From the NCBI RefSeq assembly GCF_009602705.1, contig NZ_VSWH01000001.1:3720001-3784000 (forward strand): 64,000 bases of DNA. Reading direction: 5' to 3'. This document shows positions 3,602 to 32,822 of this stretch, one piece after another. The position numbers and the translations under genes are program-made. Origin of the DNA: Chryseobacterium vaccae (GTDB lineage Bacteria > Bacteroidota > Bacteroidia > Flavobacteriales > Weeksellaceae). The notes beneath the pieces were generated by a model, which was not told the origin of the DNA, did no database searches, and was given only the letters and a program-made list of their open reading frames with translations. The stretch's first letter is position 1, and each line of letters opens with the position of its first letter.

Positions 3602-4171
3602 CTATTTAATTCTTCTTGCCTTTTTAAATTTATAAGGAAGATTGGTCTTAATATATTCATCCAGTTTTTTCCTGTCTTTTTCCAATTCCCGTGGGTACTC
3701 GGGGTTGTTTTTTAGAACAATGTCACCATAGTCTTCTATCGTGCAGAGAAACTGTGCCGGATTGCCTATAAATACGGTGTTGTCAGGCATAGATTGTGAT
3801 AAAACGGAGTTGGCTCCCAAAATACAATTGTTTCCCATCTGCACATCCTGCATGATTACACAATTGAGGCCGATAGTACAATTGTTTCCGATTTTTATCC
3901 TCCCGAAAATTCTTGCATCTTCATAGCCGGGGAGTCTTCTCAGAAGGGTTGTGGTTCCTCCATGATTTACAAACCTTACGTTTGCTGCGATATTCACATG
4001 ATCTCCAATTTCAATAAGGTAGGGCTCGGTTCCAAAATAAATTTTGTCCGGCATATTGAAACTTTTACCCACCTTCATACCACGGAATTTTGCTGCTTCA
4101 AGGCTGGCCTTGTTCAGAAATGCATGGTAGGCGGAATGTATTTTTAATACTATTCTGAATATGAGGATCAT
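3602..4171 (-). CDS. Hexapeptide-repeat O-acyltransferase (LbH family)
   Basis: The central part shows repeated hexapeptides of a left-handed beta-helix, for example IKIGNNCTIGLNCVIMQDVQ and ILGANSVLSQSM, with a histidine in NVRFVNHGGTT that matches the catalytic position of sugar O-acetyltransferases. I place the start at ATG 4171 (189 residues, MILIFRIVLKIHSAYHAFL). A longer in-frame extension to 4237 would read through the divergent KASIII promoter and the beginning of that gene, so it is unlikely. It probably acetylates a sugar of the surface glycan in the cytoplasm; the acceptor is unknown. Confidence 0.8.
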   Translation of the reverse strand: MILIFRIVLKIHSAYHAFLNKASLEAAKFRGMKVGKSFNMPDKIYFGTEPYLIEIGDHVNIAANVRFVNHGGTTTLLRRLPGYEDARIFGRIKIGNNCTIGLNCVIMQDVQMGNNCILGANSVLSQSMPDNTVFIGNPAQFLCTIEDYGDIVLKNNPEYPRELEKDRKKLDEYIKTNLPYKFKKARRIK

Positions 4172-4220: not shown

Positions 4221-5195
4221 ATGATAAAAGTTTCCAAAATAGAATATTATTTGCCGGAGCTGGTTCTTACCAATGAGGATTTGGAAAAAGAGTTCCCTGA
4301 ATGGAGTTCCGAAAGGATCCATGAAAAAATAGGCATCAGGCAGCGCCATATTTCCTCAGACAATGAGACGGTATTAGAGCTTGCCGTAAAGTCTTCTGAA
4401 AAGCTTTTTGAGGGCTATGACAGGAACAAAGTAGACTTTATTCTTTTCTGTACTCAAAGTCCGGATTATTTCCTTCCCACTACAGCATGTCTTCTTCAGG
4501 ACAGACTTGGCCTCAGAAAAAATATCGGAGCGATGGATTTCAATCTCGGATGTTCCGGTTTTGTATACGGAATGGCTTTTGCTAAAGGATTAATAGCCGC
4601 AGGAATTGCAGAAAGTATTCTGTTGATCACTGCGGAGACCTATACAAAGCATATTAACCCGAAGGATAAGGCCAACCGTAGTATTTTCGGAGATGCTTCG
4701 GCATCAATCATTATTGAAAAGGATGCAGATGCCAAAGATTACAAATTCTGTCTGGGTACAGACGGAAGCGGTGCGGAAAATCTTATCGTAAAAAAAGGCG
4801 CGTTCAGAACAGATTTTAAACTGAATCCTGAAAATGAATTTGATCCTGAAAATCTTTACATGAACGGTCCTGAGATCTTTAACTTTACCATTGAAAATAT
4901 TCCGGGGCTGGTAAAAGAAACATTAGAAACAAATGGTCTGACGATGGATGATATCGATCACTTTGTTTTTCATCAGGCCAACTCTTTTATGTTGAATTAT
5001 TTAAGGAAAAAGACAAAAATACCGGCAGAAAAGTTCTATATTGACATGGAGAATACAGGAAATACGGTGTCAGCTACCATTCCGATTGCTCTGAAAGATA
5101 TGATGAATAAAGGAACGCTGAAAGAAGGAGACCGCGTACTGATGGCTGGTTTTGGAGTTGGATATTCCTGGGGAGCTACCATTATTGAAATTTAA
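4221..5195 (+). CDS. 3-oxoacyl-ACP synthase III family protein (KASIII-like)
   Basis: A 324-residue thiolase-fold condensing enzyme. The full FabH-type triad is visible: Cys111 in NLGCSGFVYG, His251 in VFHQANSF and Asn281 in TGNTVSATIP. It also has the C-terminal FGVGYSWGA loop. Family members join an acyl-CoA to malonyl-ACP. I chose ATG 4221 (MIKVSKIEYYLP) because the -7 promoter box lies at 4190, so the in-frame ATG at 4161 would be upstream of transcription. A dedicated ACP and ketoreductase follow at once, and the genes sit inside a glycan locus. It is therefore more likely to make an acyl chain for sugar decoration than to serve housekeeping fatty-acid synthesis. It is similar to the second copy at 25154-26122. 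Confidence 0.88.
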   Translation: MIKVSKIEYYLPELVLTNEDLEKEFPEWSSERIHEKIGIRQRHISSDNETVLELAVKSSEKLFEGYDRNKVDFILFCTQSPDYFLPTTACLLQDRLGLRKNIGAMDFNLGCSGFVYGMAFAKGLIAAGIAESILLITAETYTKHINPKDKANRSIFGDASASIIIEKDADAKDYKFCLGTDGSGAENLIVKKGAFRTDFKLNPENEFDPENLYMNGPEIFNFTIENIPGLVKETLETNGLTMDDIDHFVFHQANSFMLNYLRKKTKIPAEKFYIDMENTGNTVSATIPIALKDMMNKGTLKEGDRVLMAGFGVGYSWGATIIEI

Positions 5196-5227: not shown

Positions 5228-5461
5228 ATGAAGACATCCGTTTTTTTAGAAAAATTACAGGAAGAATTAGAAGAAGATGAAACACTTACGCTTGATACCA
5301 ATTTGAAAGAGCTGGAAAGCTATGACTCTATCAGCCTGCTTTCTGTGATTGCATTTGTAGATGAAAATTTTAATAAGAAAATTGATACAAAGCAGTTTAA
5401 AGATATAGAAAAAGTATCTGATCTTGTCAATATTATTGGTAAAGAAAACTTCGAAGATTAA
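5228..5461 (+). CDS. Dedicated acyl carrier protein
   Basis: A 77-residue acidic, helical protein with the phosphopantetheine attachment motif as SYDSISLLSV, the carrier serine being about residue 34. The usual DSL is DSI here, as often seen in specialised ACPs. It lies 32 bases after the KASIII gene, and its stop codon overlaps the start of the next gene (TAATG), indicating tight coupling. It should carry the growing acyl thioester between the condensing enzyme, the ketoreductase and a sugar acyltransferase. It is unlikely to be the main AcpP, since it lacks the canonical sequence and sits in an accessory locus. Confidence 0.85.
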   Translation: MKTSVFLEKLQEELEEDETLTLDTNLKELESYDSISLLSVIAFVDENFNKKIDTKQFKDIEKVSDLVNIIGKENFED

Positions 5462-6219
5462 TGAATCAGTTTTCATTAAAAGATAAGATAATTCTAATTA
5501 CAGGGGCTTCTTCCGGGATCGGGAGAAGCTGTTCTGTAGAATGTAGTAACGCAGGTGCAGATCTTATCCTTATTGCAAGGAATGAAGAAGAGCTTCAAAA
5601 AACAGTATCTATGCTTTCTCCTGAGGCTAAGGCAGAGATGATTATTGCAGATATTACCCAAGGTGAAAGCCTGGAAGAATTAATTGCTGAAAAAGTTGCT
5701 GTTTTAGGAAAGATATCAGGATTTATCCACTGTGCAGGAATAGAGAAAACATTGCCTCTTAAAAAGCATACACCTCAGTTGTACCATGATATTTTTGCGG
5801 TCAATGTGATTTCCGGTTTTGAGATTGCTAAAATTCTTTCCCTTAAAAAATATAAGACCGAAACTTCAGCTTTTGTATTCATTTCTTCAGTTGCCGGAAT
5901 GGTTGGAGAAATTGGGAAAGCCGCTTATTCTGCCAGCAAAGGTGCAGTGGTTTCCGGAGCTCGTTCTCTGGCAATGGAACTTTCAAGAAACGGAATAAGA
6001 GTAAACAGTATCAGTCCTGCCATGGTAGATACTCCTATTTTAGAGAAAATGTTCGAAAATATCGGAGAGGAAGCTGCAGAAGAGATCCTGAAAAAACATC
6101 CGCTGGGTATAGGAAAACCTGAAGATGTGGCCAATGCCTGCATTTTCCTGCTTTCAGATGCCGCAAAGTGGATTACAGGGACTAATCTGGTAGTAGATGG
6201 TGGCTATTCAGCCCAATAA
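5461..6219 (+). CDS. SDR-family 3-oxoacyl-ACP reductase-like protein
   Basis: A 252-residue classical short-chain dehydrogenase. The Rossmann motif TGASSGIG is at about residues 14-21, the catalytic serine in FISSVAG (about 142-143) and the YSASK pair Tyr156/Lys160. The C-terminus ITGTNLVVDGGYSAQ is typical of FabG-like members. The structural NAG motif reads CAG here. Its start overlaps the ACP stop by one base, so it probably reduces the beta-keto group on that ACP to a 3-hydroxyacyl group. Its stop abuts the stop of the opposing GT4 gene with no spacer. The precise chain length is unknown. Confidence 0.87.
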   Translation: MNQFSLKDKIILITGASSGIGRSCSVECSNAGADLILIARNEEELQKTVSMLSPEAKAEMIIADITQGESLEELIAEKVAVLGKISGFIHCAGIEKTLPLKKHTPQLYHDIFAVNVISGFEIAKILSLKKYKTETSAFVFISSVAGMVGEIGKAAYSASKGAVVSGARSLAMELSRNGIRVNSISPAMVDTPILEKMFENIGEEAAEEILKKHPLGIGKPEDVANACIFLLSDAAKWITGTNLVVDGGYSAQ

Positions 6220-8830: not shown

Positions 8831-9601
8831 GTGAGCGAAATAACAAGAGTTCTCAAAACATTTATAGGGTATCTGAAAAGACCCGACCTTTATCCGGAGC
8901 TTGGCCGGAAAATCATTAAAAATACAGTAAACAGAAGCAATGCATTCAAGGGAAAGGAAAAAACCAATTCCTGGGCTGCTGCGAAAGCTGTTTCTCAAAA
9001 AGAAGCTGTTTTAAAGCTGTTCGGGATTGATATTGATCCCTTCCGTACCGATTACCGAGAAGCATTAGCGGCTGCAGAACATAAGGAGAGTGTGTGTCCT
9101 GTGAAAATGGGCGGTCCCGGAGCACTGGAACTGATCTATTATGCCTGTGAATTTACCAATGCTAAAAATGTGGTAGAAACAGGCGTTGCTTATGGATGGT
9201 CATCACTGGCTTCACTTTTATCGCTGGTAAAAAGAGAGGGTACATTGTACAGCTCAGATATGCCGTATCTGGCGCAGGATGGCGATCAGTATGTAGGATA
9301 TGTGGTTCCGGAGCAACTTAAAAACCACTGGAAGCTGTTTCGTTTTGCAGACAGGGAGTCACTTCCAAAAATCTTTTCCGAAAATCAGGTTTTTGATGTA
9401 CTGCATTATGATTCGGATAAAAGCTATAACGGAAGAATGTGGGCTTATGGCGAACTTTATCAGCATTTGAGAAAAGGAGGGGTATTTATCAGTGATGATA
9501 TTGGTGATAACTCTGCCTATCAGGATTTTTGTGAGAAAAATAATATAGAAACCACTGTGGTAGAATATGAAGGAAAGTATATTGGTGTTTTTATCAAATA
9601 A
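8831..9601 (+). CDS. Class I SAM-dependent methyltransferase
   Basis: A 256-residue protein with a GTG start placed just downstream of a -7 promoter box. The motif NVVETGVAYGWSSLASLLSL (about residues 113-132) matches the SAM-binding motif I (E/DxGxxxG) of class I methyltransferases. FDVLHYDSDKSYNGRMWAYG and FISDDIGDN match the acidic motifs of the Methyltransf_24-like group found in polysaccharide loci. It begins the plus-strand island that continues with acyltransferase genes, so sugar O-methylation is the likeliest role. Methylation of a non-sugar substituent cannot be excluded. Confidence 0.78.
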   Translation: MSEITRVLKTFIGYLKRPDLYPELGRKIIKNTVNRSNAFKGKEKTNSWAAAKAVSQKEAVLKLFGIDIDPFRTDYREALAAAEHKESVCPVKMGGPGALELIYYACEFTNAKNVVETGVAYGWSSLASLLSLVKREGTLYSSDMPYLAQDGDQYVGYVVPEQLKNHWKLFRFADRESLPKIFSENQVFDVLHYDSDKSYNGRMWAYGELYQHLRKGGVFISDDIGDNSAYQDFCEKNNIETTVVEYEGKYIGVFIK

Positions 9602-9663
9602 ACTTCCGGAAGGTATTTTTTATCTAACTAAAAATAGGAGAGGCTGTTGAACAGTTTTCATGA

Positions 9664-10683
9664 ATGAAGATAAGTCAGATCACTTTTACCCGGTTCCTGG
9701 CAGCTATGGCGATTGTTATTTCCCATTTCAATAAAGATATGTTTCTGTATAAGATTGATTATATTTCAAACATCTTTCTGAAAGCCAATGTAGGGGTAAG
9801 CTATTTTTTTATCCTGTCCGGATTTATTATGATCATAGCTTATCATAAGAAGGAGAAGATAGAATATATTGACTATTACAAAAACAGATTTGCCCGGATT
9901 TATCCGTTATATGTGCTTGGATTGCTGCTTTATCTGGTAACCCGGTTTTCGAAATTTAACATACCCGACAGCTTTCTGTATCTTTTTGGATTGCAGAGCT
10001 GGATTCCAGGTAAAGCAATGATTCTGAATTTCCCGGGATGGTCTATTTCTGTGGAGTTTTTATTTTATCTGCTCTTTCCTCTGCTGTATAATCACTTTTA
10101 TTCAAAAAAGAATAAAACCATTTGGGTGGCTGCCGGAGTGATCTGGATTGTAAGTCAGGTGTTTTCTCATCTTTATGAAGCTTCCCCTTCCTATAAAGGC
10201 CCTCATACCGAAAGTCATGAATTTCTGTATTATTTCCCTCTGATGCATATTAACGAATTTCTTGTAGGAAACCTTGCAGGTATTCTCTTTGTCAGGAATT
10301 TTAAACAGAAAAATTATGATATTCCGGTAATTCTGATTTTTACAGCCATTCTTCTTACTATGATTTTTGTTCCGCTTTTTTATCATAACGGATTAATGGC
10401 CCTGCTTTTCATCCCTCTTATTATTCTAATATCCGGAAACAATGGCTTTCTGACAAAGCTGTTTTCTTTAAAGCCACTGGAATATCTGGGTGAAGCAAGT
10501 TATGCCGTTTATATTACCCACATCCCGGTATTGTATATTCTGAGAGATATTCTGAGAACATATTATCTGGACAGCGATACTATATTCCTGATTTATATTC
10601 CCGTTCTTATCATAACTTCAATGTTGTTTTATCAATTTATTGAAAAACCTTTGAGAGATTATCTGAAAAGATTGGAAATCTGA
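9664..10683 (+). CDS. Acyltransferase family 3 membrane protein (OafA-like)
   Basis: A 339-residue integral membrane protein with about ten hydrophobic segments. The N-terminus ITFTRFLAAMAIVISHFN contains the conserved Arg and His of acyltransferase 3 (OafA/NodX). The loop segment FPGWSISVEFLFYLLFPLL is also a family hallmark. These enzymes transfer acetyl or other acyl groups to extracytoplasmic sugars of O-antigens or exopolysaccharides. It lies 62 bases after the methyltransferase and probably shares its transcript. The start is ATG 9664; an ATG at 9660 is followed at once by a stop in its frame. Confidence 0.9.
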   Translation: MKISQITFTRFLAAMAIVISHFNKDMFLYKIDYISNIFLKANVGVSYFFILSGFIMIIAYHKKEKIEYIDYYKNRFARIYPLYVLGLLLYLVTRFSKFNIPDSFLYLFGLQSWIPGKAMILNFPGWSISVEFLFYLLFPLLYNHFYSKKNKTIWVAAGVIWIVSQVFSHLYEASPSYKGPHTESHEFLYYFPLMHINEFLVGNLAGILFVRNFKQKNYDIPVILIFTAILLTMIFVPLFYHNGLMALLFIPLIILISGNNGFLTKLFSLKPLEYLGEASYAVYITHIPVLYILRDILRTYYLDSDTIFLIYIPVLIITSMLFYQFIEKPLRDYLKRLEI

Positions 10684-10705
10684 ACGATATCTTTATAAAA
10701 AAACA

Positions 10706-10713
10706 TATTTTTG
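10706..10713 (+). promoter_or_regulatory. -7 promoter box upstream of the MBOAT operon
   Basis: TATTTTTG is an exact TAnnTTTG match between the acyltransferase 3 gene and the MBOAT gene. It lies 23 bases before a possible GTG start of a very small frame at 10736 and about 150 bases before the MBOAT start. Confidence 0.45.
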
Positions 10714-10735
10714 TGTAAACCGAAAAAAAATTACA

Positions 10736-10849
10736 GTGATTGAAATAGCCCATATTCCCTCAAAAAATAATAGAAATCTTAGAAATAATCCCATAGGCAG
10801 AAGCTTTAGCGTTTCAGAAGAGGAAAAAGTATGCATCCATAACTTCTAA
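10736..10849 (+). CDS. Possible small protein of 37 residues (unrecognised)
   Basis: A short open frame starts with GTG and encodes 37 residues beginning MIEIAHIPSKNNRN, polar and basic, with an acidic segment SEEEK near the end. It has a good -7 promoter box 23 bases upstream and ends 9 bases before the MBOAT start codon. It may be a genuine leader peptide or small protein, or simply the untranslated leader of the MBOAT operon. I do not recognise a family. Only its position relative to the promoter and the next gene argues for it. Confidence 0.25.
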   Translation: MIEIAHIPSKNNRNLRNNPIGRSFSVSEEEKVCIHNF

Positions 10850-10858
10850 ATACGCCAT

Positions 10859-12292
10859 ATGTTATTCAATTCAATAGGATTTCTGATCTTTTTGCCCATC
10901 GTATTTTGTCTTTACTGGTTTGTTTTCAATAAGAAATTTCAGCATCAGAACAGACTTCTGCTTCTCGCGAGTTTTTATTTTTATGCTTGCTGGGACTGGA
11001 GATTTCTTTTCTTATTGATGTTTTCAATAGGTCTGGATTATGTATCCGGAATTAAAATAGAGAACAGCAAAAATAATAGAGAAGCCAAGTTCTGGCTTAC
11101 CTTAAGTATTGTGATCAATCTCGGGTTTTTGGGTTTTTTCAAATATTATAACTTCTTTGTTGAAAGCTTTGCTGATCTTTTAAGCAGCTTTGGATTCACT
11201 GTGAATGTCTGGCTTATCAATATCATACTTCCGGTAGGAATTTCTTTTTATACTTTCCATGGGCTTTCCTATGTCATAGATGTTTATAAAAAAAGAATAA
11301 AAGCGGAGCGGAACTTTACAGATTATGCTGTTTTTGTCAGCTATTTCCCCCTTCTTGTTGCGGGGCCTATAGAAAGGGCAACGCATCTTCTTCCCCAAAT
11401 TCAAAGAAAAAGAGTTTTCAATTATGAACAGGCAGTAGACGGAATGCGCCAGATTCTTTGGGGATTTTTCAAGAAAATGGTTATTGCAGATAATTGTGCG
11501 CCTCTGGTTAATGAGATTTTCAATAATTATCAGACGGAAACTCCCGTGAATCTTGCCATAGGAGCTGTATTATTTGCCTTCCAGATTTATGGAGACTTTT
11601 CGGGATACTCTGATATTGCATTAGGGGTTTCAAGATTATTTGGTATCGAATTACTTAAAAACTTTTCATTTCCCTACTTTTCAAGAGATATTGCAGAATT
11701 CTGGAGAAGGTGGCATATTTCGCTTTCTTCTTGGTTCAGGGATTATCTTTATATTCCTTTAGGAGGAAGTAAAGGAGGGCTGCCTATGAAGATCAGAAAT
11801 ACATTTATTATTTTCCTGGTCTCAGGATTCTGGCATGGAGCTAACTGGACTTTTATTATATGGGGAGGGCTCAATGCGCTATATTTTATGCCTTTACTGA
11901 TCATGAATAAAAACCGTCAGAATCTTGAGGTAGCGGCCCAGGGAAGACTTTTGCCATCTGTAAAAGAAATTTTTCAGATCTTAATTACGTTTTCAGTCAC
12001 TTGTATTGCGTGGATATTTTTCAGGGCAGAATCTGTTTCTCAGGCTTATCATTATATTTTAAGAATATGCAGTGTTGAGCTTTATTCTGTGCCCCATAAT
12101 TTGCCTGTGAAAGTATTTGGATTGATCGGCTTTATGATGATTGTGGAATGGATCAACAGAGAGCAGTTTCATGGGCTGGAGATCAAAAGATATATGCCTT
12201 GGGTGAGGCGGATTTTTTATCTTGCAGTTATTTATATTATTCTTCGTTACGCCAACTTCGGGAATAATGAATTCATTTATTTTCAGTTTTAG
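10859..12292 (+). CDS. MBOAT-family O-acyltransferase (AlgI-like)
   Basis: A 477-residue multi-spanning membrane protein. It carries the AlgI/DltB hallmarks: DFSGYSDIALGVSRLFGIEL, AEFWRRWHISLSSWFRDYLY followed by IPLGG, and the active-site His in GFWHGANWTFIIWGG. In AlgI systems the MBOAT protein passes an acyl group across the inner membrane to a periplasmic SGNH partner that acylates the polysaccharide. The next gene encodes a plausible partner of that kind, starting one base after this stop. The length matches the family. Confidence 0.92.
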   Translation: MLFNSIGFLIFLPIVFCLYWFVFNKKFQHQNRLLLLASFYFYACWDWRFLFLLMFSIGLDYVSGIKIENSKNNREAKFWLTLSIVINLGFLGFFKYYNFFVESFADLLSSFGFTVNVWLINIILPVGISFYTFHGLSYVIDVYKKRIKAERNFTDYAVFVSYFPLLVAGPIERATHLLPQIQRKRVFNYEQAVDGMRQILWGFFKKMVIADNCAPLVNEIFNNYQTETPVNLAIGAVLFAFQIYGDFSGYSDIALGVSRLFGIELLKNFSFPYFSRDIAEFWRRWHISLSSWFRDYLYIPLGGSKGGLPMKIRNTFIIFLVSGFWHGANWTFIIWGGLNALYFMPLLIMNKNRQNLEVAAQGRLLPSVKEIFQILITFSVTCIAWIFFRAESVSQAYHYILRICSVELYSVPHNLPVKVFGLIGFMMIVEWINREQFHGLEIKRYMPWVRRIFYLAVIYIILRYANFGNNEFIYFQF

Positions 12293-12293
12293 C

Positions 12294-13211
12294 ATGAAGA
12301 AGTTTTTATTTAAAATAGCACCTTATTTTGCTGTTGTACTTATTGTATTTGCAGTACTTGGATCTTATGCAGATGGAAATACGGATGATGATTATATGCA
12401 CTTCGCAGTTGAAAAACCACAGAATATCATTTTGGGGGATTCCAGAGGAGCACAAGGAATTGTTCCATCGGTTTTGAAAGAAAAACTAGCTGTTCCTTTT
12501 GACAATTTTTCCCTTAATATTGTCTATTCACCATACGGCCAGATTTATTTAAAAGCCTTAAAAAGAAAACTTAATCCTGCTACGAAGAACGGAATTTTTA
12601 TTCTTACCGTAAACCCGTGGAATCTTTCCCTGAATCATATTGTTAAGAAAAAAGAAGATTTTCCTGAAGAAAAATCGCCACTTAAGAATATGTATTTTTA
12701 TGATATGTCGCCCAATTATGAATACCTGTTGAGAAATTATACCAAAAGCTGGTTTAAAATTTATACAGACCGTGAAGAGGCTGGCAGATCCAATACTTTC
12801 CTGCATAAGGACGGCTGGATGGAAGTAGATGTTAATATGAACAAAGATTCTGTAGCCGCACGAACAGCGTTGAAAACAAAGGAATACAGGGATATGATGG
12901 AGAATTATAATCTTTCGGATGAACGGTTAAAGGCTTTGAATGATATCATCAATTACCTTAAAGACAAAGGAACAGTTTATCTGGTACGTATTCCTACCTC
13001 TAAAAATATTACGGAGATAGAAAATGAAAAGTTCCCGGAATTTAATGATGTTATGAAAGAGATTTCACAGAAACATCATTTGAAATATTATAATTTTGCG
13101 GGTCAGTATAATGAGTTCCAATATACAGACGGAAACCATATGTACCGGGATTCCGGTAAAAATCTTAGTGCCCGTATTGGAGATTCTATCCGGTCAGACC
13201 GTAAAAATTAA
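12294..13211 (+). CDS. SGNH-hydrolase-like membrane-anchored protein, putative MBOAT partner
   Basis: A 305-residue protein from ATG 12294 (MKKFLFKIAPYFAVVLIVFA), one base after the MBOAT stop; a longer frame upstream would overlap the MBOAT gene by about 70 bases. One N-terminal membrane segment (about residues 8-25) precedes a periplasmic domain. IILGDSRGAQGI resembles SGNH block I with the nucleophile serine, and YTDGNHMYRDSG near the end supplies a block-V-like Asp-x-x-His. This layout parallels AlgJ/AlgX- and DltD-type partners of MBOAT proteins, so it probably completes acyl transfer to the polysaccharide. The family assignment is by motif and context. Confidence 0.7.
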   Translation: MKKFLFKIAPYFAVVLIVFAVLGSYADGNTDDDYMHFAVEKPQNIILGDSRGAQGIVPSVLKEKLAVPFDNFSLNIVYSPYGQIYLKALKRKLNPATKNGIFILTVNPWNLSLNHIVKKKEDFPEEKSPLKNMYFYDMSPNYEYLLRNYTKSWFKIYTDREEAGRSNTFLHKDGWMEVDVNMNKDSVAARTALKTKEYRDMMENYNLSDERLKALNDIINYLKDKGTVYLVRIPTSKNITEIENEKFPEFNDVMKEISQKHHLKYYNFAGQYNEFQYTDGNHMYRDSGKNLSARIGDSIRSDRKN

Positions 13212-17724: not shown

Positions 17725-19521
17725 TTATAATATGGATGCGTTATTATCTGCCCAAAGTGCCAGCTGTAAGATGTTCCAGTGTTTTTCATCCTTATTCAGG
17801 AATTGCTGCACTGCTTTAAAATCTATATAGCTGAAAACTTTATGATTCGGATTTTTCAGCAGATCATCAGAAAGCTGCATCAGATTGTCTTCTGCAAACC
17901 AGTTTTTCACCCCTAATCCAAAGCCCTGCTTGTGTCGTTTTCTGATGGTTTCCGTCCAATAGGAGCCCATTGCTTCACGAAGAATGATTTTATCGTTGGT
18001 ATCATCCAGCTTCAGCTGATCTGGAAGCTGAATACAGAATTCTGCAAAATCCAGATCAAGGAACGGAGTACGTACTTCCAGTGAATTGGCCATAGCCATC
18101 CGGTCTGATTTTACCAGCATATTGGCAGGGACATAATTTTCAAGATCCACTCGCATAATATCATTCAGAGAATCTGTATCAGGGGTGAAACTGAAGTTCT
18201 GGACATAATCAGAAGTAATCCCCAGCAGGCTACGCTCCTGTTTACTGAAGGCATTTCTTACGGAATTCAAATGAAAATCCATGATGGATGAATATTCAAT
18301 GTTTTTCCGGGTAAGATATGAGGTTGTTTTCAACTTCTGATACAGTTTCAGACCAAACTGTGCGACAATATTTTTATAGCTGAAGTGATTTCTTAATTTG
18401 TTTTCAACGGTATAGAAATGATAGCCTCCGAACAATTCATCACCTACATCTCCTGATAATACGACGGTTAATTTTTCCCGGGCATATTTACAGATTTCAT
18501 AATGAGGAATGAATGAAGCATCGGCAAAAGGTTCATCAAAAAAAGGAGAGATTTTTAAAAGTGATGCTGCAAGATCTTCTTTCTTTTCATGAACTTCTAT
18601 ATGATTGGTATTGTATTTATCGGCAATTTCTTTGGCATATTTCAGTTCATTGTCTTTATGATCATATCCGAAACTAATGGTTGTCTGGCGTGGAAGAAAT
18701 TCATCAACTAAAGCGACTACAGATGAAGAATCCAGCCCTCCGCTTAGAAAGCTTCCTACTTCCACATCTGCAATAAGCTGCTTTTTTACTGCATTTTTAA
18801 GCAGGTAAAGAAACTCATCTTTAGCATCGGAAAGACTGATTGTCCTGTCTTTTGCCGGAATGCTGTAATAACGGGAGACTGAAATTTTCCCATCTTTCCA
18901 TATCAGCTGGTGAGCAGGAGGAAGGGTAAATATATTGCTATAAATACTTTGATACGTACTTACATAGCCGTACTGAAGATAGTGGGAGAGTGCATCATTG
19001 CTTACTTTAGGACTTATTAATCCTGAAGCCAGAATCGCTTTGATCTCTGATGCAAAAATAAATTCATTATTATTTCCTATAGCGTAATAAAACGGTTTTT
19101 CTCCAAAACGGTCTCTTGCACAGAAGAGCTGCTGCTTCTGATCGTCCCAGAGTGCAAATGCAAACATACCCGGAAGATCGTGGATGAGGTTTTCCTGTTT
19201 TCTCTGGTACATCGCCAGAATGACCTCCGTATCTGAACCGCCGTGATAAGGATATTCAGCATATTTTCTCTTAAGATACTGGTAGCCGTAAATTTCACCG
19301 TTCAGAACAATACATTCATTTCTTGTATTGGAGAACATGGGCTGTTTTCCATTGTCAGAGAGGTCGATAATGGAAAGCCTGCGGTGCCCCAGAGCGGCGT
19401 GATCATAAAATTCATAGTGTGAAGAGTCGGGACCGCGGTGGATCATAGAGTCGGTCATTCTCCGGATCTCTTCCTGATAATTCCTGGCATTACTGCTTAT
19501 GATTCCTGCTATTCCGCACAT
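17725..19521 (-). CDS. asnB: Asparagine synthase (glutamine-hydrolysing)-like amidotransferase
   Basis: A 598-residue class II amidotransferase. Cys2 follows the initiator Met in MCGIAGIIS and would be the glutaminase nucleophile. The synthetase domain has the PP-loop SFLSGGLDSSSVVALV (about residues 257-272) and VVLSGDVGDELFGGYHFY. The length fits AsnB, which makes asparagine from aspartate, glutamine and ATP. The gene lies between glycosyltransferases, and AsnB-like proteins in O-antigen loci can amidate uronic acids. With Ugd encoded nearby, amidation of a uronic acid residue is a reasonable alternative to asparagine synthesis. Confidence 0.88.
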   Translation of the reverse strand: MCGIAGIISSNARNYQEEIRRMTDSMIHRGPDSSHYEFYDHAALGHRRLSIIDLSDNGKQPMFSNTRNECIVLNGEIYGYQYLKRKYAEYPYHGGSDTEVILAMYQRKQENLIHDLPGMFAFALWDDQKQQLFCARDRFGEKPFYYAIGNNNEFIFASEIKAILASGLISPKVSNDALSHYLQYGYVSTYQSIYSNIFTLPPAHQLIWKDGKISVSRYYSIPAKDRTISLSDAKDEFLYLLKNAVKKQLIADVEVGSFLSGGLDSSSVVALVDEFLPRQTTISFGYDHKDNELKYAKEIADKYNTNHIEVHEKKEDLAASLLKISPFFDEPFADASFIPHYEICKYAREKLTVVLSGDVGDELFGGYHFYTVENKLRNHFSYKNIVAQFGLKLYQKLKTTSYLTRKNIEYSSIMDFHLNSVRNAFSKQERSLLGITSDYVQNFSFTPDTDSLNDIMRVDLENYVPANMLVKSDRMAMANSLEVRTPFLDLDFAEFCIQLPDQLKLDDTNDKIILREAMGSYWTETIRKRHKQGFGLGVKNWFAEDNLMQLSDDLLKNPNHKVFSYIDFKAVQQFLNKDEKHWNILQLALWADNNASIL

Positions 19522-24005: not shown

Positions 24006-25106
24006 TTAAAACTCGTTTACTGCTTTAATGATCGCCTGAATCTCTTCCTCTTCCAATACTGAAGAAATGGGAAGGCTCAGCACTTCTTCGTGCATTTTTT
24101 CGGTAATAGGGAAGGACAGATTATTATATTCTTTATACGCTTCCTGCTTGTGTGGAGGAATAGGGTAGTGAATGATTGTATGAATTCCTTTTTCCGTAAG
24201 GTGGGCCTGAAGTTCATCTCTTTTTTCAGTTCTGATCACGAAAACATGCCATACGTGTTCTTTTTCGTCGGCAGGGTTTTCAGGAAGGATGATTTTCGGA
24301 TTATTGATTTCCGAAATGAATCTTTTAGCTACTTCTCTTCGGGTATCGTTTTCATGACTGATGTATTTCAGTTTTACATCCAGAACGGCAGCCTGCAGCT
24401 CATCCAGCCTTGAATTCAAACCTTTGTAAATGTTTACATATTTTTCGTTTGAACCGTAGTTGGCCAATGCGCGGATGGCTTCATACAGCTCTTTGTCATT
24501 GGTGGTTACCGCTCCTGCATCGCCCAAAGCTCCTAAGTTTTTACCAGGATAGAAGCTGAAACCTGAAGCATCACCAAGATTTCCCGATTTGATGCCGTTC
24601 CATTCTGCTCCGATAGCCTGTGCATTATCTTCTACGATCTTCAGATCATATTTCTGGGCTATATTTTTAAGTTCTTCAGAGAAAACAATTCTCCCCTGAA
24701 GGTGAACGATAAGAATCGCTTTTGTTTTTGGAGTGATCTTTTCTTCGATCTTTAAAATGTCGATATTGTAAGTGCCTGGATCCGGTTCTACGAAAACAGG
24801 AACCAGCCCGTTGTCTGATAAAGCCAGTACAGAAGCGATATACGTATTGGCAGGAACAAGAACTTCGTCACCGGCTTTCATAATGCCCATTTCAATATAT
24901 CCGCGGAAGATAAGACGCAGGGCATCCAGTCCGTTGGCTACCCCTACGGCATATTTTGCCCCGATGTAGTTGGCTAAATTGGTTTCGAAGTTTTTAAGTT
25001 CACCGCCTAGTAAATACCAGCCGCTTCGGAAAACTTCCAGTAATTTGTTCTCTATTTCTTCCTGATACCGTAAATTGATCTTCTGAAGATCAAGAAATTT
25101 TACCAT
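24006..25106 (-). CDS. DegT/DnrJ/EryC1/StrS aminotransferase, probable dTDP-3-keto-6-deoxyhexose aminotransferase (FdtB/QdtB type)
   Basis: A 366-residue PLP enzyme of the sugar aminotransferase family. [15 protein letters not shown] carries the Schiff-base lysine (Lys189), [12 protein letters not shown] the cofactor-binding Asp160, and [13 protein letters not shown] the N-terminal PLP loop. It lies in one operon with an FdtA-like 3,4-ketoisomerase, and rmlA and rmlB are nearby. It should transfer an amino group from glutamate to C3 of the dTDP-3-keto sugar, making dTDP-Fuc3N or dTDP-Qui3N. The choice between those two depends on the ketoisomerase stereochemistry and cannot be read here. Confidence 0.88.
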
Positions 25107-25153: not shown

Positions 25154-26122
25154 TTATTTTTTTCTTAAACACACTGCGCCCCATGAATAACCTACTCCAA
25201 AGCCTACCAACATGATGTTTTTTAAATCTCTTGCAGTCATTGAATTTTTAAAGGCAATGGGAATTGTTGATGATACGGTATTTCCGTAGTCAAGCATATC
25301 GATCACGAAATTTTCCTGAGGAATGTTAATTCTTTTTCTCAGGAAATCAAGCATGAATGTATTAGCCTGATGGAAGATGAAGGTATCAATATCACTCTTT
25401 TCAAATCCGTTTTTTTCCAGGTTTTCTTTGACAAGGCCCGGAATGGCTTTTGAAGTGAAGTCGAAAATTTTCGGACCGTTCATGTGAAGATAATTGTCTT
25501 TATCCTCTTTATCCTCTGTTTTCTTATTTCTTACGGCACCGTTTTTAACGATGAGGTTTTTGGCGCCTTCTCCGTCAGTTCCTACCGAGAATTTCAGAAT
25601 TTCAAAATCTCCGTTTTCCGAGATCAGGGTTGCTGTAGCGGCATCACCGAAAAGGCTGATGTTTCCTTTATCATCTTCATGAATGTGCTTTGAATAGGTT
25701 TCTGCTGTTATTAAAACCACATTCTTCATCATTTTGGCATCAACAAGTGCGTTGGCAAGAGATAATCCGTAAATATACCCGGAACATCCCTGGTTGATGT
25801 CAATCGCTCCACAGCTTGTATTCAGGCCGGCCTGGGACTGAACGAGACAGGCAGTGGCAGGCAGGAAGTAATCAGGACTTTGTGTACAGACGATAAGATA
25901 ATCAATCTCAGATTTATCAATGCTGTATTCTTCAACAAGTTTGTTGAGGGCTTTCACTGCGATGTCGGAAGTATATTCGTCATCACCGGTAATATTCCTG
26001 TTTCTGATTCCTATTTTTTCAAGAATCTTATCGCTTTCCCAGTCCGGAAATTTAGCTGAAATCTCTTCATTGGAAATAACAGTACCCGGAATGTATGTTG
26101 AAATATGTTTGATAAAGGCCAT
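25154..26122 (-). CDS. 3-oxoacyl-ACP synthase III family protein (second KASIII)
   Basis: A 322-residue condensing enzyme with the full triad: Cys113 in NQGCSGYIYG, His251 in IFHQANTF and Asn281 in YGNTVSSTIP. It is clearly homologous to the KASIII at 4221-5195 (KIGIRNR/KIGIRQR, CTQSPDYFLPAT/CTQSPDYFLPTT) but diverged in the acceptor loop near residues 195-212. It follows an ACP gene by 10 bases in the amino-sugar operon. It probably extends or starts an acyl chain on that ACP for attachment to the 3-amino sugar. Other KASIII family reactions, such as ester formation, are also possible. Confidence 0.88.
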   Translation of the reverse strand: MAFIKHISTYIPGTVISNEEISAKFPDWESDKILEKIGIRNRNITGDDEYTSDIAVKALNKLVEEYSIDKSEIDYLIVCTQSPDYFLPATACLVQSQAGLNTSCGAIDINQGCSGYIYGLSLANALVDAKMMKNVVLITAETYSKHIHEDDKGNISLFGDAATATLISENGDFEILKFSVGTDGEGAKNLIVKNGAVRNKKTEDKEDKDNYLHMNGPKIFDFTSKAIPGLVKENLEKNGFEKSDIDTFIFHQANTFMLDFLRKRINIPQENFVIDMLDYGNTVSSTIPIAFKNSMTARDLKNIMLVGFGVGYSWGAVCLRKK

Positions 26123-26132
26123 TGTTCAGTAT

Positions 26133-26363
26133 TTATTGTTTTTTCTCAGAAACAAATGAATACAAAGCGTTTATAGTATTTAAAGCGGTGATTTGCTCAG
26201 GCTCCATATCAACACCGTATTCGTCTTCAATCATTACTTTGATGACCATTGCCGTAAGGGAATCCCAGTAGCTTTCTTTACTGTATTCTGTTTCAGGGGT
26301 GATCGTTACGTCTGTATTTTCCAGCTGAGACTGAAATTTTTCAATGAATTCGTTAATTGACAT
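26133..26363 (-). CDS. Dedicated acyl carrier protein (second)
   Basis: A 76-residue acidic helical protein with SYWDSLTAMVI holding the DSL phosphopantetheine site at about Ser35. It is distinct from the ACP at 5228-5461, sharing the overall pattern but little exact sequence. It sits between the GNAT gene (4 bases) and the KASIII gene (10 bases), so the three should be co-translated. It probably presents the acyl chain to the GNAT acyltransferase. Confidence 0.85.
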   Translation of the reverse strand: MSINEFIEKFQSQLENTDVTITPETEYSKESYWDSLTAMVIKVMIEDEYGVDMEPEQITALNTINALYSFVSEKKQ

Positions 26364-26367
26364 ATGA

Positions 26368-26895
26368 TTAAATTTTAAATTTTTTAAGAATATCCGGCAG
26401 TACGGAATTAAATGTATCCCTGCTCAGCAGATAGTAATTGTTTTCCTCATCAGTTTTTACCAGTTCGGGTTTGAAAAGCCTATGGTAGCTGTTGACGGAA
26501 GTATTCTGTTTTCTTACTTCAAACTGGACGGTATCAAATTTCAGTTCATTCAGAACATAGTCTTTCACAGCCATGTCTACTTTTATTGAGTTTTTGATGT
26601 TGGCGTAATCCGGTTTTGAAACCCAGCTTCCTATTTCCGGCAGCCCGGATTCTATTTTATAAACTCTGTAAGTTGCGAAATCTTCATTGTTTTCGTCATA
26701 GGCTATAAAATAGTATTCCTTTTGTTCCTGTTCACGCACTTTATAGTTTAAAATCCACTGTTTCTGTGCTTCTACATCCGGAGATGTTTTTGAAATAAAC
26801 CTCGATTTTTTCTCATTATTCCTGATGGAAACGATGAATTCAGCATCGTCCGCATCAACGAGTCTCAGTTTAATTCCTTTATATTCAATGATCAT
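26368..26895 (-). CDS. GNAT-family N-acyltransferase
   Basis: A 175-residue protein of the GNAT (Acetyltransf_3-like) fold. It begins EYKGIKLRLVDADDAEFIV with SIRNNEKKSRFIS, and the C-terminal half has the pattern NSIKVDMAVKDYVLNELKF and VQFEVRKQNTSVNSYHRLF. Its position between the FdtA-like gene and an ACP makes it the best candidate to acylate the 3-amino sugar, possibly using the ACP-bound chain instead of acetyl-CoA. A GNAT that puts hydroxybutyryl on dTDP-Fuc3N is known from Acinetobacter (FdhC), a useful precedent. The actual donor is inferred. Confidence 0.75.
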   Translation of the reverse strand: MIIEYKGIKLRLVDADDAEFIVSIRNNEKKSRFISKTSPDVEAQKQWILNYKVREQEQKEYYFIAYDENNEDFATYRVYKIESGLPEIGSWVSKPDYANIKNSIKVDMAVKDYVLNELKFDTVQFEVRKQNTSVNSYHRLFKPELVKTDEENNYYLLSRDTFNSVLPDILKKFKI

Positions 26896-26907: not shown

Positions 26908-27324
26908 TTATAGGTTTTTACCAACTGTTTCTTTGAAGCTTTCATAATCTCTGAAATAATCTTCTTCGTCATAGATTTCTGAGGCAAGGCAAAGCAATAC
27001 CGCATTATGGGAAAACTGAATATCTCTCCATACCAGTTTTGGGATATACAAACCTTTGGTAGGATGGTCCAGAACAAATGTTTCTTTATTCCCGTCCTTA
27101 TCTTCCGTATTAAAGGTAATAATTCCGGAAACAGCAAATATAACCTGCTGAAGCTCCTTATGAGCATGCCCTCCGCGCGTCACATCATGAGGGGTGAAGT
27201 AGGTCCAATATACACGCTGAATATCAAAAGGAATGTTTTTCTGAGCCTCGGCTATAGTAATGTAGCCCAGCTGTGACGATCCTATTTTATCGAAAGTTAT
27301 GATCTGTGGTTTATTGTTCTCCAT
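26908..27324 (-). CDS. FdtA/WxcM-like dTDP-6-deoxy-3,4-ketohexulose isomerase
   Basis: A 138-residue cupin from ATG 27324 (MENNKPQIITFDKIG). RGGHAHKELQQVIFAVSG carries the conserved histidines of the FdtA/QdtA/WxcM family, and the length fits. The enzyme shifts the keto group of dTDP-4-keto-6-deoxyglucose from C4 to C3 before transamination. The start overlaps the upstream GT61 gene by 14 bases. An in-frame extension to 27357 would deepen the overlap. An open frame in another phase (26892-27167) is a shadow of this gene. Confidence 0.88.
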   Translation of the reverse strand: MENNKPQIITFDKIGSSQLGYITIAEAQKNIPFDIQRVYWTYFTPHDVTRGGHAHKELQQVIFAVSGIITFNTEDKDGNKETFVLDHPTKGLYIPKLVWRDIQFSHNAVLLCLASEIYDEEDYFRDYESFKETVGKNL

Positions 27325-30791: not shown

Positions 30792-31655
30792 TTATTTTTT
30801 GATCAGCTGCTTCAGGTATTCACCGTAACCGCTTTTACCATATTTTGTTGCGGTTTCAAGAAGCTTTTCTTCATTGATGAATTTATTTCTGAAAGCAATT
30901 TCCTCTATACATCCAATTTTGAAACCCTGTCTTTTTTCAATAACGCTTACGAATTCGGAAGCATCATGAAGAGAGTCAAAAGTTCCGGTATCCAGCCAGG
31001 CAGTTCCTCTGTCAAGGACACCTACTTCAAGTTTTCCTTTGCTTAAATATACGTTATTAACGTCGGTGATCTCCAGCTCTCCTCTTGCAGAAGGTTGAAT
31101 GTTCTTTGCGATTTCCACCACTTCGTTATCATAGAAATAAAGTCCGGGAACGGCATAGTTTGATTTAGGCTGTAAAGGCTTTTCTTCAATAGAAACTGCT
31201 TTTAAGTCAGCGTCAAACTCTACAACACCATATCTTTCAGGATCAGAAACGTGATAAGCGAAGACTACTCCTCCGTCGGGATTAGTTTTGTTCTTCAGTA
31301 ATGTTCCCATTTCCGAGCCGTAAAATATATTATCCCCCAGTACCAATGCGGCAGAATCATTTCCTATAAACTGCTCACCCAGAATGAAAGCCTGTGCAAG
31401 TCCGTCCGGGCTTGGTTGTACCACATATTCTATATTACACCCGATCTGGGAGCCATCACCTAATAGTTTAATAAACCCCGGCTGATCATGTGGTGTGGTG
31501 ATAATCAGGATATCTTTGATTCCTGCTAATAATAAGGTGGAAAGCGGGTAATAGATCATAGGTTTGTCATAAACAGGCATCAGCTGCTTGCTCACGGCAA
31601 TCGTAAGAGGGTAAAGTCTGGTTCCGGAGCCTCCGGCTAATATGATTCCTTTCAT
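30792..31655 (-). CDS. rmlA: Glucose-1-phosphate thymidylyltransferase
   Basis: A 287-residue nucleotidyltransferase with the pyrophosphorylase loop [17 protein letters not shown] (about residues 8-24). [10 protein letters not shown] and [13 protein letters not shown] are conserved in RmlA. It makes dTDP-glucose from dTTP and glucose-1-phosphate. The length matches the family. It is the last gene of a ugd-rmlB-rmlA operon and feeds the dTDP-amino sugar branch encoded at 24006-27324. Confidence 0.95.
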
Positions 31656-31742: not shown

Positions 31743-32822
31743 CTAGTTATATTGATTTTCGTAATACTTCTGGTAGTCACCGCTGGTTACGTTTTCAAGC
31801 CATTCTTTATTTTCAAGATACCAGTCGATGGTTTTACCCAGTCCTTCTTCAAAAGTTACGGAAGGTTTCCATCCTAGGTCCTTGTTAAGTTTGGTGGCGT
31901 CAATAGCGTAACGTTTATCATGTCCCGGTCTGTCTTTTACAAAAGTAATCAGTTTCTCAGAGTGCCCCTCAGGCTTTCCTAATTTAGCATCCATCTGTTT
32001 AATCAGTTCCTTTACAAGATCAATATTCTGCCATTCGTTGAAGCCTCCGATATTATAGGTTTCTCCCGTTTTGGCTTCATTGAAGATCTGGTGGATGGCT
32101 TTGGCGTGATCAATCACAAACAGCCAGTCTCTTGTATATTTGCCGTCACCGTAAATAGGTAAAGGTCTTTCATTAATGATATTGGAAATACAAAGAGGAA
32201 TCAGTTTTTCAGGAAAATGATTCGGACCATAGTTATTGGAGCAGTTGGAAACGATGAACGGCATTCCGTACGTGTTTCCGTAGGCTCTTACCAAATGATC
32301 TGAAGCTGCTTTTGATGCTGAATACGGAGATTGCGGATCATAAGAAGTGGTTTCTAAGAAGAATCCTGTCTCTCCTAAACTTCCGTATACTTCATCTGTA
32401 GAAACATGATAGAATAGATTGGTTCTTTTTTCATCCGGGAATCTTCCATGGGTATGATCAGGATTCAGTGTCCAGAATTCTTTACACAGATTCAGAAGAT
32501 TGGCTGTGCCGTTCACGTTGGTGTTGATGAAGGCCATAGGATCTGTAATGCTTCTGTCTACATGGCTCTCGGCAGCTAAATGGACAACAGCATCCGGATT
32601 GTATTTTTCAAATACTTTTCTTAATTCTTCAGGCTTGGTAATATCAGCCTTTTCGAAAACATAATTAGGTTCATTTTCTATGTCCTTCAGATTTTCCAGA
32701 TTTCCGGCATAGGTAAGTGCATCAAGATTGATGATTGTAGTATCCGGATTGTTTTTTACAAATTCTCTTACGACATGGGAGCCGATAAATCCGGCACCTC
32801 CTGTAATGATTATATTTTTCAT
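31743..32822 (-). CDS. rmlB: dTDP-glucose 4,6-dehydratase
   Basis: A 359-residue extended SDR. The NAD motif is GGAGFIGSHVVREF near the start. VSTDEVYGSLGE supplies the catalytic Thr/Asp/Glu set, and YSASKAASDHL the Tyr-x3-Lys. It converts dTDP-glucose to dTDP-4-keto-6-deoxyglucose, the branch point for the 3-amino sugar pathway. Its start codon abuts the ugd stop with no gap. No rmlC or rmlD follows, so L-rhamnose is not predicted from this operon. Confidence 0.95.
   Translation of the reverse strand: MKNIIITGGAGFIGSHVVREFVKNNPDTTIINLDALTYAGNLENLKDIENEPNYVFEKADITKPEELRKVFEKYNPDAVVHLAAESHVDRSITDPMAFINTNVNGTANLLNLCKEFWTLNPDHTHGRFPDEKRTNLFYHVSTDEVYGSLGETGFFLETTSYDPQSPYSASKAASDHLVRAYGNTYGMPFIVSNCSNNYGPNHFPEKLIPLCISNIINERPLPIYGDGKYTRDWLFVIDHAKAIHQIFNEAKTGETYNIGGFNEWQNIDLVKELIKQMDAKLGKPEGHSEKLITFVKDRPGHDKRYAIDATKLNKDLGWKPSVTFEEGLGKTIDWYLENKEWLENVTSGDYQKYYENQYN

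Follow-up and report, generated by a model that had tools for sequence, protein, structure and literature searches.

Gene content of the locus

The window, i.e. the whole stretch of 64,000 nucleotides that was analyzed, contains two cassettes in which a β-ketoacyl-ACP synthase III (KASIII) is encoded beside an acyl carrier protein (ACP). The genes of cassette 2 and the two sugar-nucleotide genes upstream of it are as follows.

31743..32822, minus strand: RmlB-type dTDP-glucose 4,6-dehydratase (PF16363, E 1e-93)
30792..31655, minus strand: RmlA-type nucleotidyltransferase, predicted to supply dTDP-glucose (PF00483, E 9e-74); adjoins FdtA in most of the 15 intact loci of relatives
26908..27324, minus strand: FdtA/QdtA-type dTDP-6-deoxy-3,4-ketohexulose isomerase, for the 3-keto sugar precursor (PF05523, E 1.3e-41; PDB FdtA 2pa7, E 2.6e-26, and QdtA 4o9e, E 7e-26)
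26368..26895, minus strand: GNAT, predicted FdhC-type N-acyltransferase for dTDP-3-amino-3,6-dideoxyhexose (175 aa; PF13302, E 2e-7; FdhC match)
26133..26363, minus strand: ACP2, dedicated acyl carrier protein (76 aa; PF00550, E 2.7e-8; DSL motif)
25154..26122, minus strand: KAS2, A-clade KASIII (322 aa; PF08541, E 3e-26; PF08545, E 2e-21; Cys-His-Asn; clade 100/99)
24006..25106, minus strand: DegT/FdtB-QdtB-type 3-aminotransferase (PF01041, E 8e-104; PDB 7n63, 5u1z and QdtB 3frk at E 5e-138 to 1e-119)

The likely start of FdtA is the ATG at 27324. An earlier note on this DNA had described the KASIII, ACP and GNAT genes as packed with FdtA and DegT genes, and this is confirmed by the Pfam matches and by intergenic gaps of 4 to 47 bases: 12 between FdtA and GNAT, 4 between GNAT and ACP2, 10 between ACP2 and KAS2, and 47 between KAS2 and FdtB. 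The KASIII, ACP, acyltransferase and aminotransferase are thus adjacent, as they are in a cassette of the vioS/acp/vioR/vioB type. Upstream, on the same strand, are the genes for GT61, Wzt, Wzm, RmlA, RmlB and UDP-glucose dehydrogenase, and GT2 glycosyltransferases are found downstream. The best named homologs of KAS2 and of the GNAT are from Chryseobacterium. The polysaccharide block also includes an asparagine synthase-like gene (PF00733 with GATase_7) at 17725-19521.

Conservation of cassette 2 in the genus

KAS2 is present, at 85% identity or more, in 17 of 148 genomes of the genus. In 16 of the 17 (the window and the loci of 15 relatives), FdtA, the FdhC-type GNAT, ACP2, KAS2 and FdtB are contiguous and in the same order, and because this five-gene order recurs so consistently the arrangement is not a matter of chance. 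None of these 16 intact modules has an SDR between FdtA and FdtB that would serve as its own 3-ketoacyl-ACP reductase. The serine motif DSL is found in ACP2 of the window and in all 16 ACP2 copies of the 15 intact relatives' loci, one of which, in genome G012 (L081:10813-11402), has tandem copies, 64% and 79% identical to ACP2 of the window and both with the motif. The exception to the conserved order is genome G065 (L089:9764-11578), where the GNAT is shortened to 122 aa and ACP2 is gone, while KAS2 and FdtA are still open; this module is decaying. Outside this module, the same genome encodes a B-like KASIII (L187).

In the protein database, 16 of 41 GNAT homologs share their longest contig size with a KAS2 homolog among the matches listed, and 9 of these 16 are only 51-61% identical to the GNAT of the window. 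The shared contig size suggests that linkage of KAS2 and GNAT extends to diverged sequences beyond the genus survey.

The GNAT and its predicted sugar substrate

FdhC is the only strong sequence match of the GNAT and also the top match of its predicted fold, with 30-31% identity over nearly the whole length. The best-fitting structure is the FdhC complex with CoA and a 3-[(R)-3-hydroxybutanoylamino] sugar product; the FdhC structures (5kta, 5ktc and 5ktd) are, we take it, those from Acinetobacter nosocomialis. The only NCBIfam match is PseH, at E 0.001 and 27 bits vs a cut-off of 93. FdtA and the 3-aminotransferase are encoded together with the GNAT in 16 of the 17 KAS2 genomes, the exception being G065 with its truncated GNAT. 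The proposal of the earlier note that the GNAT would act on a 3-amino sugar in the manner of FdhC is supported by the sequence and predicted fold matches; the GNAT and a 3-amino sugar are assigned by homology. In an order-level search, which scored at most eight candidates per genome and may have missed some, such a GNAT was found in at least 5 of 395 genomes, four of them in the same genus, including the window's own.

At one diagnostic position the isomerase has Arg, like QdtA and unlike FdtA, which has His; at the other it has Leu, unlike either enzyme. We take these two positions to determine the product. The sugar would be dTDP-Qui3N or dTDP-Fuc3N, and the alignment gives a weak lean towards Qui3N. 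Two FdtA-type genes stand side by side at L090:7888-8698 (G133) and in L092 (G064), so that both Qui3N- and Fuc3N-type precursors are possibly made there.

KASIII enzymes of the two cassettes

Cassette 1 lies on the opposite strand and is made up of three genes.

4221..5195, plus strand: KAS1, A-clade KASIII of cassette 1, not assigned to the cassette 2 pathway (51% to KAS2; ortholog in 71 of 148 genomes)
5228..5461, plus strand: ACP1, acyl carrier protein of cassette 1 (PF00550, E 8e-6; 21% to ACP2)
5461..6219, plus strand: SDR1, FabG-like reductase of cassette 1 (PF13561, E 3e-54; no ortholog in G012)

Judging from alignments, the start of KAS1 at 4221 is preferable to that at 4161. The identities given in the list bear out the observation of the earlier note that the two cassettes have homologous KASIIIs but different ACPs.

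KAS2 keeps Cys, His and Asn at the positions of C112, H244 and N274 of E. coli FabH. Like the other A and B KASIIIs that were compared, it is without Trp32 and Arg249 of FabH, and for this reason acetyl-CoA is not assured as its starter. At 32 positions that we chose to represent the surroundings of the FabH active site (the labels 256 and 307 among them did not match the E. coli letters), KAS1 and KAS2 are identical at 27 and differ at 32, 152, 156, 214 and 257. Shared residues include Leu for Phe87, Tyr for Leu142, Ser for Ile155, Pro for Asn210, Phe for Arg249, Met for Ile250 and Val for Gly306. Agreement with KAS2 is 24-26 positions for other A-clade enzymes, 14-19 for B-clade enzymes, 14 for the housekeeping-type KASIII and 16 for E. 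coli FabH; the 27 of 32 mostly restates clade membership and on its own is a weak argument.

In a tree of KASIII sequences (n=54), KAS1 and KAS2 both belong to clade A (100/99), which is separate from clade B (100/99) and from FabH. The tree was built from 16 of the 80 loci of a B-seeded scan, mostly loci with two KASIII matches though not every such locus, and from loci of the genus; L006, which is 23% identical to the housekeeping KASIII, was left out, as was a copy of that enzyme. The window genome has six KASIII family matches, i.e. KAS1, KAS2, the housekeeping-type enzyme, two outside A and B, and L006, which is not in the tree; no clade B KASIII was found among the six.

Comparison with known acylation systems

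The closest relatives of the predicted transfer step are FdhC of A. nosocomialis and the fdhC/qdhC O-antigen pathways of E. coli O103, Hafnia and Acinetobacter, which have the same GNAT fold and FdtA/FdtB and rmlA neighbors. In the available part of the published account, the genes given for the E. coli O103 and Hafnia pathways are rmlA, fdtAB and fdhC only (PMC4869667). No dedicated KASIII or ACP is named there, whereas both are fixed parts of cassette 2. The short loci of genomes G230 and G064, whose diverged FdhC-like GNATs were the two distant matches of the order-level search, likewise have neither. Since these loci are without a KASIII and an ACP, and the E. coli O103 and Hafnia pathways are described without them, FdhC in itself does not require either. 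In the open-licence PMC literature, we found no description of FdhC with a dedicated KASIII-ACP pair and no Chryseobacterium glycan structure with a 3-hydroxyacyl amino-sugar group.

The viosamine island of Pseudomonas syringae, vioA-vioS-vioB-vioR-acp, encodes one KASIII (VioS), an ACP, a reductase and an acyltransferase for a 3-hydroxybutanoyl amide, as the accessible text of PMC3927599 has it; deletion of vioR abolishes the modified viosamine, the vioA, vioB, vioT, vioR and vioM mutants were checked by mass spectrometry, and VioB is listed as dTDP-viosamine acetyltransferase. To the extent of that text, the island resembles cassette 2 in having one KASIII, one ACP, an N-acyltransferase, an aminotransferase and a dTDP amino sugar. 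The differences are the 4-amino sugar (viosamine), the island's own and needed reductase VioR, and VioB, which we take to be of the left-handed β-helix type and not a GNAT. One of the PDB entries matched by a hexapeptide transferase is named VioB.

In Flavobacterium psychrophilum, two ketosynthases (wfpC and wfpE), an ACP (wfpD), a reductase (wfpF) and a PglD homolog (wfpG) have been proposed to make 3,5-dihydroxyhexanoyl, which is found on N-4 of Qui2NAc4N (PMC6519341, available part). The parallel that the earlier note drew with this system holds for the presence of a dihydroxyhexanoyl group on an amino sugar; it does not hold for the chemistry of attachment, which in that part of the report concerns a 4-amino sugar and a PglD-type enzyme, not a 3-amino sugar and a GNAT. 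Both the wfp genes, as described there, and the window devote a ketosynthase and an ACP to an amino-sugar acyl group within a flavobacterial polysaccharide locus. However, wfpC-G form one cluster with one ACP, and the cassettes of the window have one KASIII each and two ACPs (21% identical), 20 kb apart. No PglD_N domain or second DegT was found among the window genes scanned, at 0.25-39 kb; a GNAT, FdtA and one DegT are found instead.

Paired KASIII loci in other genomes

Contigs of relatives were searched with clade B KASIII as seed, and the best 80 of 466 relatives were considered; F. psychrophilum is not among the matches listed for these. Eighteen loci in the tree have at least two KASIIIs within about 5 kb, 13 of them A+B and five B only (L122 has three KASIIIs); most of the pairs thus combine enzymes of two clades next to a single ACP. 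The absence of A+A pairs from the B-seeded loci proves little, because the search was seeded with B. The fairer test is the KAS2-seeded survey of the genus, in which no adjacent A+A pair was seen by eye.

In L097 (Lacinutrix algicola) the order is KASIII-A, ACP, KASIII-B, SDR, PglD, PglE, PglF, which fits wfpC-D-E-F-G if the letters run in gene order, and this locus served as a stand-in for the F. psychrophilum sequences. In comparison with such stand-ins, rather than with F. psychrophilum's own sequences, KAS1 and KAS2 are both of clade A, vs A and B in the L097-like loci.

Some paired-KASIII modules include a Rieske oxygenase: L065:503-8022 (PF00355/PF00848), and L093, L094, L096 and L172, by BLAST matches to that of L065. 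These modules adjoin PglD/PglE genes, and L065 and L093 have a ferredoxin-reductase-like partner; the oxygenase suggests an oxygenated acyl group. In L070:5361-8836, L103, L106, L112 and many other B-seeded loci, the neighbor of the clade B KASIII is a 528-aa protein, presumably FkbH-like, that matches HAD domains weakly; often there are also a glyoxalase-sized protein (a glyoxalase in L070), an ACP and an SDR. A different starter or extender unit is perhaps used in these loci.

Proposed pathway and its alternatives

We consider it probable that the genes from 27324 to 24006 form a self-contained unit, in which one condensation and a FabG reduction provide an (R)-3-hydroxybutyryl (or similar short 3-hydroxyacyl) group for transfer to dTDP-Qui3N/Fuc3N. 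From the gene assignments we infer the following route. RmlA and RmlB would produce dTDP-4-keto-6-deoxyglucose, FdtA would relocate the keto function to C3, where the DegT enzyme would introduce the amino group to give dTDP-3-amino-3,6-dideoxyhexose. KAS2 would carry out a single condensation with malonyl on ACP2, most likely with an acetyl starter, and the resulting acetoacetyl-ACP2 would be reduced to (R)-3-hydroxybutyryl-ACP2 by the housekeeping FabG, or by SDR1 where present. The FdhC-type GNAT would then move 3-hydroxybutyryl onto the 3-amino group. The acylated sugar would pass to a glycosyltransferase and the Wzm/Wzt exporter for a surface polysaccharide. In flavobacteria, branched units are the main starters of fatty acid synthesis, from which a straight-chain C4 intermediate need not be obtainable; this would make a KASIII and an ACP of the pathway's own worthwhile. 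The P. syringae viosamine island, at least in the available part of its description (PMC3927599), supports this reading as a precedent with one KASIII; so does G012, which keeps cassette 2 without KAS1, SDR1 or any other KASIII of clade A or B. The lack of a reductase in the module weakens it, since the P. syringae island has and needs vioR. Also against it are the FdhC pathways and loci that get by without a KASIII and an ACP, the missing Trp32 and Arg249 of KAS2, and the failure to find a Chryseobacterium glycan with such a group.

The main alternative put forward in the earlier note was two-round chain building, with KAS1, ACP1 and SDR1 making 3-hydroxybutyryl, KAS2 and ACP2 extending it to 3,5-dihydroxyhexanoyl, and the GNAT attaching the product. 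Dual-KASIII acyl-sugar modules do exist, and two ketosynthases have been proposed for the 3,5-dihydroxyhexanoyl group of F. psychrophilum in the available part of PMC6519341. KAS1 is also present in 15 of the 17 KAS2 genomes vs 56 of the 131 others (Fisher p 5e-4), a real association that speaks for two rounds. It is gone, however, among the 71 genomes close by IF2 (15 of 17 vs 45 of 54, p 1.0), a set delimited after the data had been seen: its members have an IF2 row that scores no lower than the 1890 bits of G065, the most distant KAS2 genome, and genomes of split or partial IF2 match fall outside it. The cassettes are also independent in both directions: a KAS1 ortholog (81% or more) occurs without KAS2 in 56 of 71 genomes, and KAS2 occurs without KAS1 in two of 17, the decayed G065 and G012. 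The latter has the whole of cassette 2, yet neither a KAS1 ortholog nor an SDR1 ortholog (best SDR match 32%), and its other four KASIII matches are a housekeeping-type enzyme, 96% identical to that of the window genome, and three outside clades A and B. Where KAS1 and KAS2 are both present, they lie 20-36 kb from each other on opposite strands in 14 of 15 genomes, and on different contigs in the fifteenth. Finally, the two belong to the same clade, with the 27 identical residues noted above, and A+A pairing is seen in 0 of the 18 paired-KASIII loci of the tree, most of which come from the B-seeded selection. Independence, the relatedness control, position and the clade comparisons together disfavor two-round building, which is not supported and which we regard as quite unlikely. 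A slight chance goes to a conditional version, in which KAS1 and KAS2 would cooperate across operons in species that have both cassettes, the GNAT placing 3,5-dihydroxyhexanoyl or a longer group on the 3-amino sugar, and species with cassette 2 only would make the C4 group; glycan acyl length would then depend on a second, separable locus.

Other alternatives concern the acyl group of a single condensation. KAS2 may take propionyl, isobutyryl or another short acyl starter and give a different short 3-hydroxyacyl amide; the Leu, Tyr and Ser in place of Phe87, Leu142 and Ile155 of FabH and the lack of Trp32 would fit this, and natural acyl groups of amino sugars vary, e.g. 3-hydroxy-3-methylbutyryl in Shewanella, but the best-fitting FdhC structure holds a 3-hydroxybutyryl product and we think another starter unlikely. 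Transfer of unreduced acetoacetyl, or its reduction on the sugar, would account for a module without a reductase, and dTDP-N-acetoacetylviosamine is named for the P. syringae vioR mutant in the accessible text of PMC3927599. The FdhC precedent and a FabG-like reductase found even in G012 (32% to SDR1; putative FabG) make this improbable. As a last option, the GNAT would be a plain acetyltransferase using acetyl-CoA, with KAS2 and ACP2 serving something else nearby. Most GNATs are acetyltransferases, and the sole NCBIfam match, below its cut-off, is to PseH; with FdhC as the only strong sequence match and top fold match, and with the GNAT keeping KAS2 and ACP2 as neighbors in 16 of 17 genomes, this option is very unlikely.

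With the preferred reading of one condensation, cassette 2 is a variant of the known 3-hydroxyacyl amino-sugar pathways, and its new part is the KASIII-ACP pair fixed to an FdhC-type GNAT. FdhC is known to add 3-hydroxybutyryl, and the available parts of the published accounts leave the origin of this group to general metabolism. To judge from the fixed KASIII-ACP-FdhC unit, Chryseobacterium probably produces the donor on a carrier protein reserved for it and keeps it there, which resembles the P. syringae flagellin pathway except for the fold of the transferase. The unit also predicts a testable glycan group. A rule may be suggested: a single A-clade KASIII accompanied by its own ACP and transferase would indicate one condensation, and a pair of KASIIIs from different clades next to a single ACP would indicate two. 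Such a rule would make it easier to read from a genome how Bacteroidota acylate their surface glycans.

Surroundings of cassette 1

KAS1-ortholog loci were examined in 13 of the 71 genomes. An LbH transferase gene is beside cassette 1 in all 13, and a DltB-like MBOAT is within the fetched stretch of eight; these are likely cassette 1's own outlets. No SDR1 match adjoins KAS1-ACP1 in three of the 13 loci (L064, L066 and L073). In the window, the genes adjoining cassette 1 at 8831-13211 encode a methyltransferase, a PF01757 acyltransferase, an MBOAT and a protein of 329 aa that belongs to no clear family. The best PDB match of this MBOAT is DltB (E 2.4e-26). The acyl groups that DltB uses come from a carrier protein, and ACP1 might therefore feed the DltB-like MBOAT.
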